Positions 24,425 through 35,143 of a stretch of DNA of 57,776 nt are shown here, one piece after another. The translations under genes and the position numbers were made by a program. The notes beneath the pieces are model-generated. The model was not told the origin of the DNA. It made no database searches and was given only the letters and a program-made list of their open reading frames with translations. Each line of letters begins with the position of its first letter. The stretch's first letter is position 1. Source of the DNA: Sandaracinus sp. (GTDB taxonomy: Bacteria > Myxococcota_A > Polyangia > Polyangiales > Houyiibacteriaceae); the NCBI GenBank assembly GCA_002699025.1, contig PABA01000179.1:1-57776 (forward strand), read 5' to 3'.

Positions 24425-25825
24425 ATGACGGGTGCCACCAGCGAGAGCGCGAGCGACGTGCCGACGACCCCCGAGGAGCTCCGCGCCCGCTTCGAGGAGC
24501 GGGGCATCCGCAAGGTGAAGGTCGGCGGCTTCGACGTGGACGGCGTGCTCCGCGGCAAGCTCATCTCGCTGGCGAAGTTCTGGTCCGCCGTCGAGAAGGG
24601 CTTCGGCTTCTGCGACGTCATCTTCGGCTGGGACATCGCCGACAACCTCTACGACAACGTCGCCGTCACGGGCTGGGCCAGCGGCTACCCGGACGCGCTC
24701 GCGAAGATCGACCTCTCGACGTTCCGCGTGCTCCCCTACGAGCCCGACACGGCCTGCTTCCTCGTCGACTTCCACACCCCCGAGGGCAAGCCCCACCCGG
24801 CCTGCCCGCGCGGCCTCCTCAAGCGCGTCGCCGCCCGCGCCGAGAGCGCCGGCTACCGCCCGGTGTTCTCCGGCGAGCTCGAGTTCTGGGTCTTCCGCGA
24901 GAGCCCCGAGAGCCTCCGCGAGAAGGGGTACCGCCAGCTCACGCCGCTCAGCCCCGGCATGTTCGGCTACTCCTGGCTCCGCGAGGTCCAGCACGCGCCC
25001 TTCGTCCACGACGTCCTCGACACGATGAAGGACTTCCGCATCGACGTGGAGGGCCTGCACACGGAGACGGGCCCCGGCGTCTGGGAGGCCGCGATCCGCT
25101 ACGCGGACGTCATCGAGGCGGCCGATCAGGCGGCGCTCTTCAAGACGACCATGAAGCAGATCTGCCACCGCCACGGGCTGGCCGTGACCTTCATGGCGAA
25201 GTGGAGCCCGGACCTCCCCGGCTCGAGCGGCCACCTCCACCAGTCGCTCTGGGACTCGACCCGCGAGACGAACCTCTTCGCCGACCCGAAGGACCCGACG
25301 GGCCTCTCGAGCCTGGCCCAGCACTACGTCGCCGGCCTCGTCACCACGGCCCCCGATCTCACGGCGCTCTACTCCCCCTTCATCAACTCCTTCCGCCGCT
25401 ACGTGCCCGGCATGTGGGCGCCGCTGACCTCGACCTGGGGCATCGAGAACCGCACCTGCAGCGTGCGCGTGATCAACGGCCCGGGCGCGAGCGCCGCGCG
25501 CGCCGAGCTCCGCCAGACGGCCGCCGACCTGAACCCCTACGTCGCCATGGCGACGGCCCTCGGCGCGGGCCTCCACGGCATCGAGAAGGCCGTGGACCTG
25601 CCCCCGGAGACGAAGGGCGACGCCACCGGCGAGGCGGCCCAGGGGCCGGCGCTCCCGCAGACCCTCGACCAGGCCGTGCGCATGCTCCGCGAGAGCGAGG
25701 CCGCGCGCGCGATCCTCGGCGAGGGCTTCGTCGACCACTACGCGCGGACGCGCGAGTGGGAGGTCCGCGAGCACCGCAAGAGCGTCAGCCAGTGGGAGCT
25801 CGAGCGCTACTTCGAGGGCGTATGA
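24425..25825 (+). CDS. glutamine synthetase family ligase
   Basis: ATP-dependent amide ligase of the GS fold, 466 residues. Active-site elements are present: the ExE pair in SGELEFWVF near 150, ETGPGVWEAAI near 220, the catalytic His in GHLHQSL near 268, and GIENRTCSVR in the ATP/phosphate site. Sequence style is nearer to gamma-glutamyl-polyamine or other amine synthetases than to GlnA: it lacks the GlnA adenylylation region. The ATG follows GGGGAGGAGG at about 24407-24415. It overlaps the next gene as ATGA, heading an operon. The amine it condenses with glutamate is unknown. Confidence 0.85.
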   Translation: MTGATSESASDVPTTPEELRARFEERGIRKVKVGGFDVDGVLRGKLISLAKFWSAVEKGFGFCDVIFGWDIADNLYDNVAVTGWASGYPDALAKIDLSTFRVLPYEPDTACFLVDFHTPEGKPHPACPRGLLKRVAARAESAGYRPVFSGELEFWVFRESPESLREKGYRQLTPLSPGMFGYSWLREVQHAPFVHDVLDTMKDFRIDVEGLHTETGPGVWEAAIRYADVIEAADQAALFKTTMKQICHRHGLAVTFMAKWSPDLPGSSGHLHQSLWDSTRETNLFADPKDPTGLSSLAQHYVAGLVTTAPDLTALYSPFINSFRRYVPGMWAPLTSTWGIENRTCSVRVINGPGASAARAELRQTAADLNPYVAMATALGAGLHGIEKAVDLPPETKGDATGEAAQGPALPQTLDQAVRMLRESEAARAILGEGFVDHYARTREWEVREHRKSVSQWELERYFEGV

Positions 25826-27558
25826 AGAGCCCCTTCGAGCTCCTGAGCGAGTACCCGCTGCGCCTGCCGCGGCTCCGCCCCTACGTGCCCTCGCCGGACG
25901 ACCCGGCGATCTTCTGGTTCAACAGCGAGCGCAAGGACATCGTCCGCGAGGTCGTCGACCGGGTCGTGCGCGGCCACGGCGGGGGCGGCGGGCCCGGCGC
26001 GGACGGCCGGCGCCTCGAGCTGATGCTCAACGACACGGCGCTGAACGAGGTCCGGCGCCTCGAGCGCCAGCGCGACTCGGAGGCGAAGGAGCAGCTCCCG
26101 TTCTACCGGAGCCTCACGCGGCGCATCGCCCGGATGAGCGACGGGGAGAAGCGCGAGGCCGCCCGGACCATCGTCCAGCGCTACGCCCGCGACGTCGCCG
26201 GCAACTTCGACCCGCGCGTCTACAACCTCGCCAAGCACGCCGTGCCGCGCCTGCTCACGGGCGTGATGCGCCCCTCGAGCCTCCCCGAGGAGCTCCTCCC
26301 GACCGGCGGCGGCTCGATCATGGAGCGCCTGCTCCGCATCGAGGGCGATCTCGAGCGCCTCTCCGCGCTCCAGCGCATCGGCACGCTCGTCTACGTGCCC
26401 ACGCACTCGTCGAACCTCGACTCGATCGTCCTCGGCCGCGCCCTCGAGGTCGCGGGCCTCAGCCCGGTGATCTACGGCGCGGGCAAGAACCTCTTCACGA
26501 ACCCGATCATCAGCTTCTTCATGCACAACCTCGGCGCCTACCGCGTCGACCGGCGCATCAGCGCGCGGGTCTACAAGGAGGTGCTGAAGACCTACTCGCA
26601 GGTGATGATCGAGCGGGGCTACCACTCGCTCTTCTTCCCGGGCGGGACGCGGAGCCGGAGCAACCTGATCGAGTCGCACCTCAAGCTCGGCCTCGCCGGG
26701 AGCGCCGTCCGCGCCTTCGCGAACAACCGGGTGCACGGCGTCGACCGGAACGTCTTCTTCGTGCCGACCACCATCAACTACGAGCTCGTGCTCGAGGGCG
26801 AGACGCTCGTCGAGGACTGGCTCAAGGAGGAGGGGCGCGCGCGCTACATCATCGAGGACGACGAGTTCTCGCAGCTCGACCGCTGGATCGCCTTCTTCCG
26901 GAAGCTCGTCGGCCTCGAGGCGGCCTGCATCATCCGCTTCGGCGCGCCCCTCGACCCCTTCGGCAACCCGGTCGACCAGGCGGGCCGCTCCGTCGCGCCG
27001 GGCGGGCGCACCATCGACCCGGGCACCTACGTGATGAAGGGCGGGCGCCCGGTGAACGACGCGGCCCGCGACGCCGCCTACACGCGCGAGCTCGGCGAGG
27101 TGCTGGTCGAGCGCTACCGGCGCGAGACGGTGGTCATGGCGACGGCGGTGGTGGCGCACGTGCTCTACCGGCACCTGGTCGCCGAGACGCCGGGGCTGGA
27201 CGTCTTCGCGCGCCTGAGGCTCCGGGGCGAGGTCGCCGTGCCGCGGGAGGCGCTGCTCGCGGAGGTCGGGGCGACGCGGGAGCGGCTGGTGGAGCTCGAG
27301 CGCGAAGGGCGGCTCCATCTCAGCGAGGGGCTCCGGCGCGCCAGCCCGGCGGAGGTCGTCGAGCGCGCCCTCGCGGTCTGGAACGGCTATCACGCGCGCA
27401 TCGCCGCGCGGGATCTGGGCGACCGGATCACGGCGGAGGATCCGACGCTCCTGCTCTACTACCAGAACCGGCTCGTGCCCTTCGCGACGGAGCTCGTCAC
27501 GGACGCGGCGCATGCGGAGGCGGCGCGGGAGATCCACACGATCGGAGCGGTGCGATGA
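25822..27558 (+). CDS. PlsB-like glycerol-3-phosphate/lysophosphatidate acyltransferase family protein
   Basis: A 578-residue acyltransferase. The acceptor motif HSSNLDS (HX4D) is near 193, followed by the phosphate-binding block FFPGGTRSRSN near 275, and VFFVPTTINYE, as in PlsB and DHAPAT relatives. It is shorter than E. coli PlsB (807). It starts within the stop of the GS-family gene and ends within the start of the GpsA-like gene, both ATGA, so all three should be made together. Likely reaction: acylation of sn-1 of glycerol phosphate or a related alcohol. Strong mixed G/C codon bias shows no sign of transfer. Confidence 0.88.
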   Translation: MKSPFELLSEYPLRLPRLRPYVPSPDDPAIFWFNSERKDIVREVVDRVVRGHGGGGGPGADGRRLELMLNDTALNEVRRLERQRDSEAKEQLPFYRSLTRRIARMSDGEKREAARTIVQRYARDVAGNFDPRVYNLAKHAVPRLLTGVMRPSSLPEELLPTGGGSIMERLLRIEGDLERLSALQRIGTLVYVPTHSSNLDSIVLGRALEVAGLSPVIYGAGKNLFTNPIISFFMHNLGAYRVDRRISARVYKEVLKTYSQVMIERGYHSLFFPGGTRSRSNLIESHLKLGLAGSAVRAFANNRVHGVDRNVFFVPTTINYELVLEGETLVEDWLKEEGRARYIIEDDEFSQLDRWIAFFRKLVGLEAACIIRFGAPLDPFGNPVDQAGRSVAPGGRTIDPGTYVMKGGRPVNDAARDAAYTRELGEVLVERYRRETVVMATAVVAHVLYRHLVAETPGLDVFARLRLRGEVAVPREALLAEVGATRERLVELEREGRLHLSEGLRRASPAEVVERALAVWNGYHARIAARDLGDRITAEDPTLLLYYQNRLVPFATELVTDAAHAEAAREIHTIGAVR

Positions 27559-28502
27559 GCGGCGTGAGCGAGGGCCGGGCGCCGGTCGCCGTCGTGGGCG
27601 GCGGCGGCTTCGGCCAGGGGATCGCCCGGGCGGCGGCGCGGCAGGGCCTCGAGGTGCTGCTCTGGAGCCGGAGCCCGCGGAACCTCGAGGGCGTGAAGGA
27701 CACGACGAGCTTCGTGGAGGTCGCGCGGGCCGGGCTGATCTTCCTCGCCGTGCCCTCGCCCTTCGTCGAGGCCGTCGCGGGCGAGATGGGCCAGCAGCTC
27801 GACGGACGCCACTACCTCGTCCACGTCTCGCGCGGGCTCGTCGGGGACGCCCTCGAGCCGATCTCGCTGGCGCTGAGGCGGGTGACGCCCTGTCGGCGCG
27901 TGGGCGCGCTGGGCGGGCCGCTCGTCGCGGAGGCGCTCCGGGACGGGACCCCGAGCGGCGCCGTCGTCGGGACGCACTTCCCCGAGGTCGCCGACGCCGT
28001 GCGCGCGGCCCTCGGGAGCGAGGCGCTCCGGCTCTACGACACGATGGACCTCGTCGGCGTCGAGGTGGCCTCGGCCATGGTCGGGCTGCTCGCGCTGGGC
28101 GTCGGCTACGGGCGGGCGGCCGGCGCCGGGCCGGCGGCGCTCGCGCTCGTGCTCACGCGGGGCATGGCCGAGGCGGCGCGGCTCGCGCCCTCGCTGGGGG
28201 CCGACCCCCAGACGCTCAGCGGCCTGGCGGGGCACGGCGATCTGCTGGCCGTGATGGCGGGCGACGAGCGGCCCGAGGTGCGCCTCGGCCGGGCGCTGGC
28301 CGAGGGGCGATCGCTCGACGAAGCGGCCCGGGAGGCGGGCGCGCACATCGAGGGCGTGAAGCTCGCCAGCCGGCTGGCGGCCCACGCGGAGCGGCTCGGG
28401 CTCGAGGCGCCGATCTGCCGAACGATCGTCGACGTGCTCGAGGGCACGCCGGCGCAGGATGCCATCCGCGCTCTCATGGCGCGGGACGCGGGGACGGAGT
28501 AG
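27555..28502 (+). CDS. GpsA-like dehydrogenase with altered active site
   Basis: A 315-residue NAD(P)-binding protein of the glycerol-3-phosphate dehydrogenase family. The Rossmann motif VAVVGGGGFGQG, VPSPFVEAV, VGALGGPLVAEAL and GLAGHGDL all match GpsA. Two conserved lysines are missing: the TKGLE-type segment reads VSRGLV, and where GpsA has GGAVKNVIAI this protein has ASAMVGLLAL; the following substrate loop NARTALITRG reads AALALVLTRG. It may therefore use another substrate or be inactive. It is coupled to the acyltransferase gene by ATGA, so a role in glycerolipid chemistry is still implied. Confidence 0.85.
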   Translation: MSGVSEGRAPVAVVGGGGFGQGIARAAARQGLEVLLWSRSPRNLEGVKDTTSFVEVARAGLIFLAVPSPFVEAVAGEMGQQLDGRHYLVHVSRGLVGDALEPISLALRRVTPCRRVGALGGPLVAEALRDGTPSGAVVGTHFPEVADAVRAALGSEALRLYDTMDLVGVEVASAMVGLLALGVGYGRAAGAGPAALALVLTRGMAEAARLAPSLGADPQTLSGLAGHGDLLAVMAGDERPEVRLGRALAEGRSLDEAAREAGAHIEGVKLASRLAAHAERLGLEAPICRTIVDVLEGTPAQDAIRALMARDAGTE

Positions 28503-28512
28503 GGGTGACCCG

Positions 28513-29688
28513 ATGAGCGACGAATCGAACGCGACGAAGCCGGTGGTGTGGAGCTTTCCCACGCGGCTGATCTTCGGAGCCGGCGCGCGCGCCGAGCTGC
28601 CCGTCGAGGTGAAGGCGCTCGGCGGCACGAAGGTGCTCGTGGTGACCGACCCGGGCGTGAACGGCGCGGGGCTCGTCGAGCCGCTCGTCGAGGCGCTGGA
28701 GCAGGCCGGCATCGGCGCGGCCGTCTTCGACGGGGTCAGCTCGAACCCGCTCGAGAGCGAGCTCCACGCGGCGACCTCGGCCTACCGGGACGCCGACGCG
28801 GACGCGATCGTCGCGGTCGGCGGCGGGAGCCCGCTGGACGTGGGCAAGCTGGTGAAGCTGACGGCGACGCACCCGATGCCGCTGGCCCAGTACGACGACG
28901 CGCTGGACGGCTGGAAGCACATCACCAAGCCGATGCCGCCGATGATCGCGATCCCGACGACGGCGGGCACGGGGAGCGAGGTCGGCCGGGCCGGCGTCGT
29001 GACGTTGCAGGCGACGCACAAGAAGACCGTGATCTTCGCGCCGGCGCTCATGCCGAACGCGGCGATCCTGGACCCGGAGCTGACCGTCGGGCTGCCGCCG
29101 CGGACGACGGCGGCGACGGGCATCGACGCGCTCACGCATTGCGTGGAGGCGTACCTGGCGACGGGGGATCACCCCATGGCCGACGCGATCGCCTTCGCGG
29201 GGATCGAGCTGGTCGCCAAGCACCTCGAGACGGCGGTGCACGACGGCAAGGATCTCGAGGCGCGGGGGGCCATGCTGAAGGCGGCGATGATGGGGGCGGT
29301 GGCGTTCCAGAAGGGGCTCGGGGCGTGCCACGCGCTCGCGCACCCGCTGGGGGCCGAGTACGACCTGCACCACGGGCTGGCGAACGCGCTCTGCCTGCCG
29401 GCCGTGCTCGACTTCAACCGGAGCGCCGTGCCCGAGCGGGTGGCGCAGGTGGCGAAGCTGCTCGGCGCGCGGGGTGACGACACGGAGACGCTGGCCTTCG
29501 AGTGCTCGGGCGCCGTGCGAGCGCTGCGGAAGAAGGTCGGCCTGCCCGACGGGCTCGAGGCCGTGGACGTGCCCGAGGACGGGCTCGAGAAGATCGCGAA
29601 GCTGGCGATGGACGACGCCAGCCACCGGACGAACCCGAGGCCGTGCACGGAGGAGGACATGCTGAGCCTCCTGAAGGCGTCCTTCTAG
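28513..29688 (+). CDS. iron-containing (group III) alcohol dehydrogenase
   Basis: A 391-residue NAD(P)-linked alcohol dehydrogenase. Family motifs are VGGGSPLDVGK near 120, IPTTAGTGSEV near 150, and the metal ligands in GIDALTHCVEAY (Asp, His) and HALAHPLGAEYDLHHGLAN (two His). All four ligands are present. It follows the GpsA-like gene by 10 bases and is presumably the last operon gene; a hairpin lies 29 bases after its stop. It could interconvert an aldehyde and alcohol used as acyl acceptor, or a hydroxyacid; the substrate cannot be told. Confidence 0.9.
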   Translation: MSDESNATKPVVWSFPTRLIFGAGARAELPVEVKALGGTKVLVVTDPGVNGAGLVEPLVEALEQAGIGAAVFDGVSSNPLESELHAATSAYRDADADAIVAVGGGSPLDVGKLVKLTATHPMPLAQYDDALDGWKHITKPMPPMIAIPTTAGTGSEVGRAGVVTLQATHKKTVIFAPALMPNAAILDPELTVGLPPRTTAATGIDALTHCVEAYLATGDHPMADAIAFAGIELVAKHLETAVHDGKDLEARGAMLKAAMMGAVAFQKGLGACHALAHPLGAEYDLHHGLANALCLPAVLDFNRSAVPERVAQVAKLLGARGDDTETLAFECSGAVRALRKKVGLPDGLEAVDVPEDGLEKIAKLAMDDASHRTNPRPCTEEDMLSLLKASF

Positions 29689-31041: not shown

Positions 31042-34000
31042 TCAGGCCCGCGCGCGGCCGTGCACGCAGCGCTCGCGGGCTGCCCGATCGTGGCGCCGGA
31101 GCTGGGCGCGGCGGAGCCCACGGAGGAGCTCGCCGTTCCAGATCGCCGGCAGCGGCGCCTCGTCGAGCCGGCCCGCGATCGGGTGCTCGTAGTCGACGGG
31201 CCGCACGGCGCCGTCGGGATCGATGGCGACCTGCTCCCAGGCCATGCGGCAGGGCCGGAAGGCGGCGCGGTTGGCGAAGTCGTCGGCCTCGCGGAAGGCG
31301 CGCTCTGCCGGTCCGTCCTGGACGCAGAGGCACGCGCTCGGGCTCGCGAGGTGGTCGACGAGCGTCACGCCGCTCCCCTCGAGGGCCGCGCGGAGGGCGG
31401 CCATGGCGTCTCGCACGGCGGCGCCCCGCGGGTCGACGAAGAGCTCGCGGGCCGGCTGGTTCACGGGCGCCGTCTCCTCGATCTTCAACCAGTCGACGCC
31501 GAGGGCGACGGCGCGCCGCCCGAGGGCGACCAGCTCGGGCAGGAGCCGCGTGGTCAGCACGGCCGAGAGGCCGACGCGCAGGTCCGCGCCCCGCTCGCGC
31601 GCCGTCACGGCGCCCTCCACGTGCGCGAGGAGCCGGTCCATGCGGCTGCCGAGGCGCACCAGCTCCTGGGTCTCGCGCGTCGCGCCGTCGACGCTGATCG
31701 CGAGGCTGGTCACGCCGTGGTCGACGAGCTCGCGAGCGTGTCCGGGTCCAGGCGGCGACCGTTCGTGAGCAGGTGCACGTCGAGGCGCCCGGGTCGGCCC
31801 GCGCGGGCCTGCTGGATCGTGGCGAGCGTCTCGAAGAAGCGCCCGTGCACGAGCGACTCGCCGCCGTGCGAGAGACCCACGTAGCGCGCCCCGGCGAAGG
31901 CCTCGCGGAGCGCGTCGAGCACCCAGGGCGCCATGTCGCGGGCGCTTCCGTCCGCCGTGCGCGCGGGCGCGCCGGTGATGCAGTGCACGCAGCGGAGGTT
32001 GCAGCGCTCGGTGAGCGTCAGATAGAGGCGCGAGGGCAGCGCCGGGCACTCGTCCCAGCCCTCGACGAAGGCCTCGGCGGCGACCCGCGGGCCCTCTTCG
32101 TGCACCGCCTCGAAGAGCTCCCGCGCCTCCCTCGACGCCTCCCGCGCGAGGGCCGCGCCGCTCTTCGGTCCGAGCCAGAGCGCCCCCTCCTCGATCCGCG
32201 CCTCGCCGGCCACCAGCAGCAGGCGGCCCTGGGGCGGCGCGCCCCCCGGGAGCGGCAGGCGCACCTCGCCCTCGCCGCGGTGGAGCGCGACGTCGACCGT
32301 CTCCTCTCCGGCCCGCCGCCGAAAGCCCGCGACCTCTGCGTGCCCCCAGTCGAGGGCCAGCTCGTCACCGCGCCGGAGCGCCGCGCTCGCTCGCCGGAGC
32401 GCGAGCCCGCCCTTCACGAGCGCGAGCGTCGTGGCGTCCCAGGAGGTCCGATCCCAGGGCATGGGCATGCGGTCGGGCCAGGCGTCCTCGAAGCCGCGCT
32501 CGGGCGCGTCGCTCGCCAGGCCGATCTCGTCGCCGTAGAGGAGCGCCGGCACCTCCGGCCGGGTCAGCACGGCGAGCTGCTCGAGGCGCGCGAGGCGCCG
32601 GTCGCCGACGCGGCTGAGCGTGCGCACCTGGTCGTGGGTCGCCGAGAAGCCGAGGCGCGTATGCCCCTCGCTCCGCCGCGCGCGTCGCCGCAGCCAGGCG
32701 GCGCGGGTCGCCTCGGGGGAGGCGCCGCGCTCGAGGAAGCCGCGGAGCGCCTCCTGCGCGAGGAAGTCCGTGCCCGCGTCGAGGAGCCCATCGGTCCAGC
32801 TCTCGACGTGGTCCGAGGTGATCTCGCCGAAGACCACGGCGTCGGCCCGCTCGCCGCGGACGGCGCGGACGATCTCCGCGAGGAGCGCCTTCGGGAGCTC
32901 GGCGGCGGCGTCCACGCGGAAGCCGTCCACGCCGAAGCGCGCCCAGCGGCGGAAGACGTCGACGACGAAGGCGCGCGCCCCGGCGTCGTCGAGGTTCAGC
33001 AGCGGCTCGCGCCAGGCGCCCTTCTGGTAGTAGCGGTAGCCCGGCTCGAGGCCCTCCGTGAAGGGGTGGGCGTAGATCTCGAACCAGGAGAAGAAGGGCG
33101 AGGCCGGGCCGCGGTCGCGGACGTCGAGGAACTCGGGCAGCTCGCGGCTGACGTGCGTGGCGGGGACGTCGAGGAGCACGCGGAGCCCGCGCGCATGCGC
33201 CGCGTCGACGAAGGCGCGGAGGGCCGGCTCGCCGCCGAGCGCCGCGTCGACGCGATCGAAGCCGTGCACGTCGTAGCGATGCGCCGAGCCGGAGGCGAAG
33301 ACCGGCGTGAGGTGCACGGCGCCGACGCCGAGCTCGGCGAGGTGGTCGAGGCCCTCCCGGGCGCCCTCGAGGTCGCCGCCCCGGCGCGCCTGCTCGTCCT
33401 CGGGGGCCGCGCCCCAGCCGCCGCCGGCGCGCCGGAAGCGGTCGACGAAGACCGTGTAGACGCTGGCGTCCTTCCACCACTCGGGCACGCCCGAGCGGAG
33501 GGCGCGCCGCTCCACGGAGAACGCCTCGCCGGCCCCGCGCCCCACGAGCGCGCCGCCCGCCCGGAAGAGGTAGTGGAGCGCCCGCGCGCCGGCCGGGAGC
33601 GTGCGCTCGAAGATCCGGTGCTCGTTCGTCTCGGCGACCGGCTCCATGGCCGCCTCGCGCCAGCCGTGCCCCTCGTCCCAGCGAAGGGCGAGCCCCTCGC
33701 CGGCGCCGCGGCGGAGGCCGGCGCGCACCGTGACGCGGCCGTCGTCCCGCGCGAAGAGCCAGGGCGCGGCCGGCGCGTGGAGCACGGGCTCCGGCGTGCC
33801 GCCGACGACCAGCGCGCTGTTCCGATGGCCGCCCTCGGCGACCGTGCGCGGGTTCGCCGGGTCGAGGTGCCAGCTCCGGTCCGCGTGCTGGAGCTTGTAG
33901 GCGTAGACGCCGGGCCCGAGCTCGAGCTCGGCCTCGAAGGCGCCGTCGCCCGCGCGCCGAAGCGGCACCGGATCGCTCCACGCCTTCACTTCGCCGCGTA

Positions 34001-34070
34001 GCTCGACCCACTCGAGGCCGGGCAGGGGCGGCGGGGCGTAGCGGAAGAGGATCCGGTGCCGGGTGCGCAT
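31042..34070 (-). CDS. GH13 alpha-amylase fused to radical SAM domain, interrupted by an apparent frameshift
   Basis: About 1009 codons if the frame is restored. Residues 1-95 resemble a CBM48-like beta domain. The GH13 barrel (about 170-600) has DVPATH, FRVDAAAE (nucleophile Asp near 385), VVFGEI (acid/base Glu near 413) and SATHDQ. From about 680 a radical SAM domain begins, with CNLRCVHC near 691. Translation in that frame stops at 31710. The downstream part continues in another frame (ELVDHGVTSLAISVDGATRE ... CRMAWEQVAIDPDGAVRPV, SPASM-like) to a stop at 31042. Adding one base at about 31731 joins the two seamlessly (DTLA-ELVDHG). It may be a sequencing error or real decay. It follows the CBM21-like gene by 23 bases in a probable operon. 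Confidence 0.82.
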
Positions 34071-34093
34071 CGTGCTCGTCCCCTCCGGCGGGC

Positions 34094-35143
34094 TCAGTCG
34101 GCCTTGCGGACCTGGTAGTTCCGGCCGGCGTTGTTGTCCCAGACCTCGCGCGGCGTCGCGCCCTCGGCGAAGCCGTGGCGGTAGACGATGGCGTACTCGA
34201 AGACCTCGGCCGGGCCCTCGACGTCCACCTCGAGGCGCCACTGCTCATAGTCGGCGACGCCGTCGATCACCGCGCCGATCGGGCCGACGTAGTAGAAGGC
34301 GTTCTTCTCGCCGTCGCCCATGCGGAAGGTGTTCACCGTCTCCCAGCCGTCGGTGGTCCAGACCATCTCGAGCTGCTTGTCCCAGTCGAGGTTGGCGACG
34401 CGGAAGTCGAGCGTGCCCTGGACGCCCTGCTCGCTCACCTCGAGCCCCTGGTCCGGGGACCAGTAGCGCGAGAGGATCGACCAGGGGCCGATCGACGCCG
34501 GGTAGAGGTCGCCGCCGTTGTCGTCGACGAAGGTGCGCTTGCGCCACTCGCCGGCGCCCTCGTCCCAGTACCAGGTGCCGTCCTCGTACCAGGCGTCGAA
34601 GGTCAGCAGGCTGCCCTCCCAGGAGCGCACCTTCACGGGCACGTGCCACTCCTCGCGGCCGTCCTCGAAGGTGCGCACGTAGTAGCCGTTCGCCGTGCGC
34701 GGCGCGTGGTAGCCCGGGAGCCGGTAGACGACGCCGACCTTCTTGTCCTCGAGGTGCGCCGAGGGGGTCGGCTCGACGAAGAGCTGGATGAGGTACTCGT
34801 AGTCCGTGCAGCCGCCGCGGAAGCCGCAGCCGGTGGTCTGCGTCCAGTAGACGCCGTCGTAGCGGACCATGTGCGTGTTGCGCTCGCCGCGCTCCTGGGC
34901 CCACGAGCGCACGCTGCTGTTGATCAGCGCCTCTTCGCTCGAGCCGACGACCTCCCCCGCGCAGCCGCCGACCAGGAGCTGGCCGCTCGAGAGGCCGATG
35001 GCGCCGGCGGCCGTGGCGGCCCGCGCGAGGCGACCGCCGCGGCGGAAGCGCCGCATCATCCACTCGATGGCCTCGCCGAAGCTCGACGTCTCCTCGGCGC
35101 GCCCGGGCGCCTCGGCGCCGTCTCCGTTCGTTCGATAGATCAT
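34094..35143 (-). CDS. lipoprotein with CBM21-like starch-binding C-terminus
   Basis: A 349-residue exported protein. The N-terminus has a basic region (MMRRFRRGGR), a hydrophobic stretch and a lipobox-like VGGC near residue 62, so Tat or late lipoprotein export is likely. The body is rich in Trp, Tyr and Gly, and the last residues, VWDNNAGRNYQV, match the WDNN-G-NY signature of CBM21/CBM53 modules that bind starch or glycogen. The first half has a related aromatic-rich beta pattern and may be another binding module. Located 23 bases upstream of the amylase fusion and read in the same direction, it probably holds starch at the surface. The ATG at 35143 is preferred to one 14 codons upstream. 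Confidence 0.7.
   Translation of the reverse strand: MIYRTNGDGAEAPGRAEETSSFGEAIEWMMRRFRRGGRLARAATAAGAIGLSSGQLLVGGCAGEVVGSSEEALINSSVRSWAQERGERNTHMVRYDGVYWTQTTGCGFRGGCTDYEYLIQLFVEPTPSAHLEDKKVGVVYRLPGYHAPRTANGYYVRTFEDGREEWHVPVKVRSWEGSLLTFDAWYEDGTWYWDEGAGEWRKRTFVDDNGGDLYPASIGPWSILSRYWSPDQGLEVSEQGVQGTLDFRVANLDWDKQLEMVWTTDGWETVNTFRMGDGEKNAFYYVGPIGAVIDGVADYEQWRLEVDVEGPAEVFEYAIVYRHGFAEGATPREVWDNNAGRNYQVRKAD

Follow-up and report, generated by a model that had tools for sequence, protein, structure and literature searches.

The window analysed here, a 57,776-nucleotide stretch of DNA from Sandaracinus sp. (contig PABA01000179.1), carries a gene for a GpsA-like protein directly downstream of a gene for a PlsB-like acyltransferase. 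GpsA and PlsB-type enzymes form the entry point of bacterial membrane lipid synthesis. A sequence-only reading had proposed that this GpsA homologue lacks both conserved catalytic lysines and that such a protein in an intact operon suggests a new substrate. We examined whether the observation and its interpretation hold.

Fold and active site of the GpsA-like protein

The GpsA-like open reading frame (315 amino acids; 27555–28502, + strand) was assigned both GpsA domains by Pfam (PF07479, 93.5 bits; PF01210, 55.3 bits) and scored below the cutoff of every NCBIfam GpsA model that it matched (best, 188.2 bits against a cutoff of 257). Domain search, an AlphaFold2 model and structure comparison all revealed the GpsA fold, with a Rossmann domain and an all-helical C-terminal domain. 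The model, generated using a 28-sequence alignment, had a pLDDT of 90.8 and a pTM of 0.90, and its closest solved fold was GpsA 3k96 (Z 35.8 across 304 residues). Compared with GpsA (the E. coli protein, the structures 3k96, 1z82 and 1n1e, and PF01210/PF07479), the protein is predicted to have the same fold over its whole length and shares the GxGxxG motif, the GP of the core, GLAG-GD and Asp-248. Since solved GpsA/GPDH structures were the best matches and ketopantoate reductases, the next different families, came far lower (about Z 22), the model places the protein with GpsA in descent and fold but not in its active site. The NAD-binding part and GLAGHGDL had been described as retained and both were indeed present; the GxGxxG dinucleotide motif (Gly-15 to Gly-20) lies at 27597–27614 (+ strand), and NAD(P) binding is predicted from it.

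To number the active site, we aligned the protein with the E. coli K-12 GpsA sequence. This alignment confirmed that both catalytic lysines are gone. Lys-110 of TKGLE (human Lys-120) aligned with Arg-93 in VSRGL (codon at 27831–27833, + strand), and the Lys-195–Asn-196 pair of KNVIAI (human Lys-204–Asn-205) aligned with Val-176–Gly-177 (28080–28085, + strand). The counterpart of NARTALITRG was AALALVLTRG, without the Asn and the first Arg, as had been proposed. The sequence-only reading nevertheless understated the change: the phosphate-binding Ser-258–Arg-259–Asn-260 has become Arg-239–Pro-240–Glu-241 (28269–28277, + strand), the equivalent of Thr-252 is absent, and a loop of about 17 amino acids after the second strand, retained in intact acyltransferase-linked copies, is deleted in this protein and in the other members shown of its clade, here called R-type. 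Asp-229 (28239–28241, + strand; Asp-248 in E. coli, human Asp-260) is the sole residue of the active-site network that is kept.

In human GPDH (PMC12874384), the oxyanion is stabilised by Lys-120 and Lys-204, and the phosphate is held by Arg-269 and Asn-270, supported, together with the lysines, by Asn-205, Thr-264 and Asp-260; Asp-260 pairs with Lys-120. The same paper gives a cost of 9.1 kcal/mol for R269A, with kcat/Km reduced 4.5 million-fold, and costs of 5.6, 5.3 and 3.1 kcal/mol for the single losses N270A, K120A and K204A, respectively. Human and bacterial residues were equated in this analysis via conserved motifs; by this assignment, the equivalents of human Lys-120, Lys-204, Asn-205, Thr-264, Arg-269 and Asn-270 are all replaced in the GpsA-like protein. 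Since these six residues are replaced, normal DHAP reduction appears very unlikely; the protein may still catalyse another reaction.

We consider it improbable that the protein still reduces DHAP or acyl-DHAP through a rearranged site, in which Arg-239, one residue upstream of the lost Arg-259, would grip the phosphate and Arg-93 would replace Lys-110. In the AlphaFold2 model, this Arg sits next to the site of the lost one, where the same helix begins, and the retained Asp-229 corresponds to the residue that pairs with Lys-120 in human GPDH (PMC12874384). However, Lys-195, Asn-196, Thr-252 and Asn-260 are lost too, and the genome has a normal gpsA. This second, complete copy (G000:C71) has all active-site residues and scored 199.8 bits compared with 94.2 bits for the GpsA-like protein, ruling out the GpsA-like gene as the genome's sole gpsA. 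GC-driven Lys-to-Arg drift was ruled out as well, since this normal copy retains both lysines and encodes 15 lysines compared with two in the GpsA-like gene. A strong, canonical-score PF07479 match (E 1.6e-49 or better) was found in 70/72 genomes searched (exceptions, G004 and G243), which also speaks against a rearranged reductase. In three genomes (G236, G221 and G301), the single PF07479 match was an intact copy linked to the acyltransferase.

Fixation and selection in the R-type clade of Polyangia

A 100-row tree contained a branch (SH-aLRT 96, by a quick method without bootstrap) that set the 54 R-type rows apart from all others. In E. coli numbering, Arg-110, Arg-258, Glu-260, Asp-248 and His-107 were each present in 54/54 rows, whereas Lys-195, Asn-196, Thr-252, Arg-259 and Asn-260, as well as Lys at position 110, were each found in 0/54; the phosphate-binding Arg-Asn site was occupied by Pro or Ala followed by Glu in all 54. 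Conversely, Lys-110, Lys-195, Asn-196, Asp-248, Thr-252, Ser-258, Arg-259 and Asn-260 were each conserved in 33/33 canonical GpsA rows. Thus, seven of eight active-site positions were changed throughout the clade and kept in all canonical rows and in 21/21 intact acyltransferase-linked rows. The GxGxxG motif was kept in the clade rows covering it, except for L102, which has a one-residue deletion. The sequence-only reading had named lysines located elsewhere in the active site as a refuting outcome. In no alignment column was Lys the majority residue among the 54 rows, and a relocated lysine was thereby ruled out.

In the window's family, 31/33 genomes, the window's own included, matched the GpsA-like query, and 28 genomes had a full-length or nearly full-length orthologue with 47–66% identity; the orthologue of G001 was split into two frames (L053), and G028 gave canonical-level matches only. 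The matches in G175 (G175:C70) and G218 (G218:C146) included one in-frame TGA. Such interruptions may be genuine or may stem from sequencing error or an end-of-match effect. Forty-four columns were invariant among 28 GpsA-like sequences, and dN/dS was 0.05–0.24 in nine close clade pairs (crude Nei–Gojobori estimates). These sequence comparisons indicate that the GpsA-like genes are under purifying selection and, since the new residues are fixed in 54/54 rows at such dN/dS values, that the loss of the active site is due neither to chance nor to decay.

This fixation keeps alive, as a serious but less than even possibility, the reading that the protein is a true NAD(P)-dependent reductase acting in the same lipid pathway on a new substrate that is larger or phosphate-free, for example, acyl-dihydroxyacetone or another keto-lipid precursor. 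Arg-93 and Asp-229 would then take the oxyanion role, and Arg-239 and Glu-241 would read the substrate. Consistent with this, the five residues listed above are invariant, the dinucleotide motif is maintained, the pocket side chains have become small or hydrophobic (Thr-141 to Leu/Val, Lys-195 to Val/Thr/Met and Asn-196 to Gly), and the operon of one family adds a glutamine-synthetase-like ligase and an iron-containing alcohol dehydrogenase. The replacement at Lys-195, however, is variable (Val, Thr, Met, Ala, Ile or Asn), so no new fixed acid-base residue appears at that site, and the lipid substrate is a conjecture.

Pairing with a PlsB-like acyltransferase across the phylum

The upstream partner gene encodes a PlsB-like acyltransferase of 578 amino acids (25822–27558, + strand; PF01553, 58.6 bits for the longer ORF), whose end shares an ATGA with the start of the GpsA-like gene, producing a 4-nt overlap that we read as translational coupling. 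Its profile matched solved PlsB (E 8.5e-14) and human GPAT1 (E 2.9e-9), and the GPAT1 structure 8e4y was the sole match under E 0.001 for its AlphaFold2 model (pLDDT 83.3; E 8.5e-11, TM 0.48, with poor global superposition). It fell below the curated PlsB cutoff (55.5 bits compared with 618.5 for TIGR03703), as did the longer PlsB-like protein of the host genome (C90; 461.4 bits). In addition to the profile match, it shares with PlsB and GPAT1 the order of blocks II–IV and an intact HX4D catalytic motif, of which the His and Asp were kept in 130/130 loci. In block III (FFPGGTRSR), Gly occupies the position of a Glu that matters in PlsB, so the acyl acceptor of this acyltransferase is not certain.

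With a threshold of E 1e-40, the acyltransferase profile matched 160 of the 282 genomes searched from the phylum. We read 139 stretches, 59 selected via GpsA-like matches and 80 by acyltransferase matches alone (part of all such matches). The acyltransferase was present in 130 of the 139, and in 112 of these 130 it had a same-strand GpsA-like neighbor. The signature of this neighbor was lost in 87 loci and intact (K-K-N-S-R-N) in 21, and in four the neighbor was cut. The 80 acyltransferase-selected loci comprised 62 same-strand pairs (49 lost, 10 intact and three cut) and 18 loci without such a neighbor, of which seven belonged to f2 genomes with an R-type gene elsewhere (G038, G061, G065, G070, G117, G170 and G271). 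The two genes overlapped by 4 nt in 76 of the 112 pairs and by 1 nt in 11. R-type copies (E below 1e-46) occurred in 35 genomes of the phylum sample, and the acyltransferase was found in 35/35, including the seven f2 genomes with the genes apart. A scan of 80 loci in named genomes gave a similar picture: all 26 R-type loci and three loci with other lost signatures (29/29 lost) lay beside the acyltransferase, compared with 2/51 intact loci. Named carriers of the R-type include Enhygromyxa salina (Myxococcota, Nannocystaceae), Nannocystis and Sandaracinus/Polyangia MAGs. In the papers searched, a partial selection of the literature, we found no description of the pair or of an inactive GpsA.

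The intact acyltransferase-linked copies (e.g. L080–L084 and L088–L091) have the same gene order and overlapping partner as the GpsA-like protein, and most of them (15/21) share His-107 with the R-type clade; they differ in keeping the K, KN and SRN residues and in falling outside that clade. Lost forms occurred in 25/36 families and intact forms in 14/36, and on the acyltransferase tree the two states require at least three changes. Three genomes have two pairs each, one intact and one lost (L075/L074 in G253, L086/L097 in G238 and L288/L322 in G158). An adjacent acyltransferase and intact GpsA were also seen outside Myxococcota, on a contig labelled as a Flavobacteriales MAG (L204), reflecting either transfer or mis-binning. 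At residue 222 of the window acyltransferase, the Lys of a GAGKNLF motif, Lys was found in 61/87 enzymes beside a lost GpsA and in 0/21 beside an intact one; this pattern may reflect ancestry alone.

Outside the R-type clade, 51 lost rows showed highly diverse signatures (e.g. GAGDPD, KRTAPV, RVEHPG and HGQEPN); these rows were aligned automatically and single positions may be misplaced, but they clearly differed from the intact rows, which were uniform. The GxGxxG motif was found in 75/87 lost rows and in 21/21 intact acyltransferase-linked rows. In another selection test, dN/dS was 0.08–0.48 in 12 pairs, again indicating purifying selection, and it exceeded that of the acyltransferase in most lost-type pairs. 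This higher ratio, together with the loss of the active site and the 12/87 lost rows in which GxGxxG was not found, is what a decaying gpsA duplicate carried by the operon would show. Such decay is nevertheless extremely unlikely, given the low dN/dS of the nine clade pairs, the 44 invariant columns and the frames that stay open in many families.

The same diversity bears on the new-substrate reading. Among sister lineages that carry the same acyltransferase, the signatures differ considerably and give no sign of a new reaction common to them, and the broken signatures across the phylum, together with the lost rows lacking a recognizable GxGxxG, fit a loss of function with a partner role better than one new substrate. 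A new-substrate reductase would explain the fixation within Polyangia better than a partner role does, but not this diversity. Thus, the original proposal is right that the operon is intact and the lysines are gone, and the new substrate is one of two live readings.

A putative accessory subunit and its genomic surroundings

Loss of catalytic residues with retention of the fold and of purifying selection, the pattern that marks a pseudo-dehydrogenase, was found in the GpsA-like protein. The explanation we favor, with roughly even confidence, is that it descends from GpsA and is maintained as a pseudo-dehydrogenase that serves the upstream acyltransferase as an accessory or sensor subunit. It probably started out as a functional GpsA supplying the neighboring acyltransferase with glycerol-3-phosphate, a state that some lineages still show. 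The paralogue would then have lost its normal DHAP/glycerol-3-phosphate dehydrogenase activity while forming a complex with the acyltransferase, as a subunit that retains both domains of the fold and, within Polyangia, the NAD(P) site. It could scaffold or regulate the enzyme, possibly as a sensor of NAD(P)H or of a glycerol-phosphate-like ligand, and the strict new residues of Polyangia may bind NAD(P)H or make up the interface. This path from feeder to partner would account for the gene coupling, for a dehydrogenase site lost repeatedly and in varied ways, for the intact acyltransferase motif and for the retained fold; varied signatures outside the clade are expected if the pocket no longer serves one reaction. 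The coupling is seen at the level of the genes; complex formation, cofactor binding, regulation and the acyl acceptor are inferred.

Several observations speak against a partner role. The strictly fixed pocket residues of Polyangia look like a working rather than a released site, and Arg-258, the neighbor of the old Arg-259, could still hold phosphate. No fused acyltransferase–GpsA protein was found among the 112 pairs, so fusion fails as proof of interaction, and the genes lie apart in the seven f2 genomes. More tentatively, and with less than even confidence, we propose that Myxococcota have a two-protein glycerolipid acyltransferase whose feeder dehydrogenase repeatedly became a dead nucleotide-binding regulator subunit. 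If so, a metabolic feeder enzyme would have become the control subunit of the very acyltransferase that it used to supply. Dehydrogenases that repeatedly lost the site but stayed coupled to the acyltransferase offer a natural intact-to-dead series for the change from enzyme to partner or sensor subunit, and many myxobacterial proteins annotated as glycerol-3-phosphate dehydrogenase may not be one.

The pair is flanked upstream by a gene for a glutamine-synthetase-like ligase (24425–25825, + strand; PF00120, 315 bits for the longer ORF), whose stop is overlapped by 4 nt by the acyltransferase start, and downstream by one for an iron-containing alcohol dehydrogenase (28513–29688, + strand, with a putative start codon; PF00465/PF25137). 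In the window's family, the ligase gene precedes the pair in 20/20 regions and the alcohol dehydrogenase gene follows it in 19/20, two of these matches covering only 59–67 amino acids. Beyond this family, both flanking genes were found only in L095 among the loci examined; we therefore place them outside the core pair and dropped an operon-wide pathway with them as its core. They may add pathway steps in the window's family.

The idea that the acyltransferase replaces PlsY phylum-wide was unsupported: PlsY was found in 57/160 genomes with the acyltransferase and in 14/122 without it. The host genome itself has PlsY, PlsX and the longer PlsB-like protein. In two near-complete genomes (G095 and G165), neither PlsX nor PlsY was matched, and the one PlsB match was the acyltransferase of the pair, which is thus the only first-step candidate seen there. 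Elsewhere in the window, on the − strand at 31042–34241, one ORF encodes an alpha-amylase domain and, after it, a radical SAM domain, and a SPASM domain lies in a second ORF that overlaps it in another frame, an unusual fusion with an apparent frameshift.
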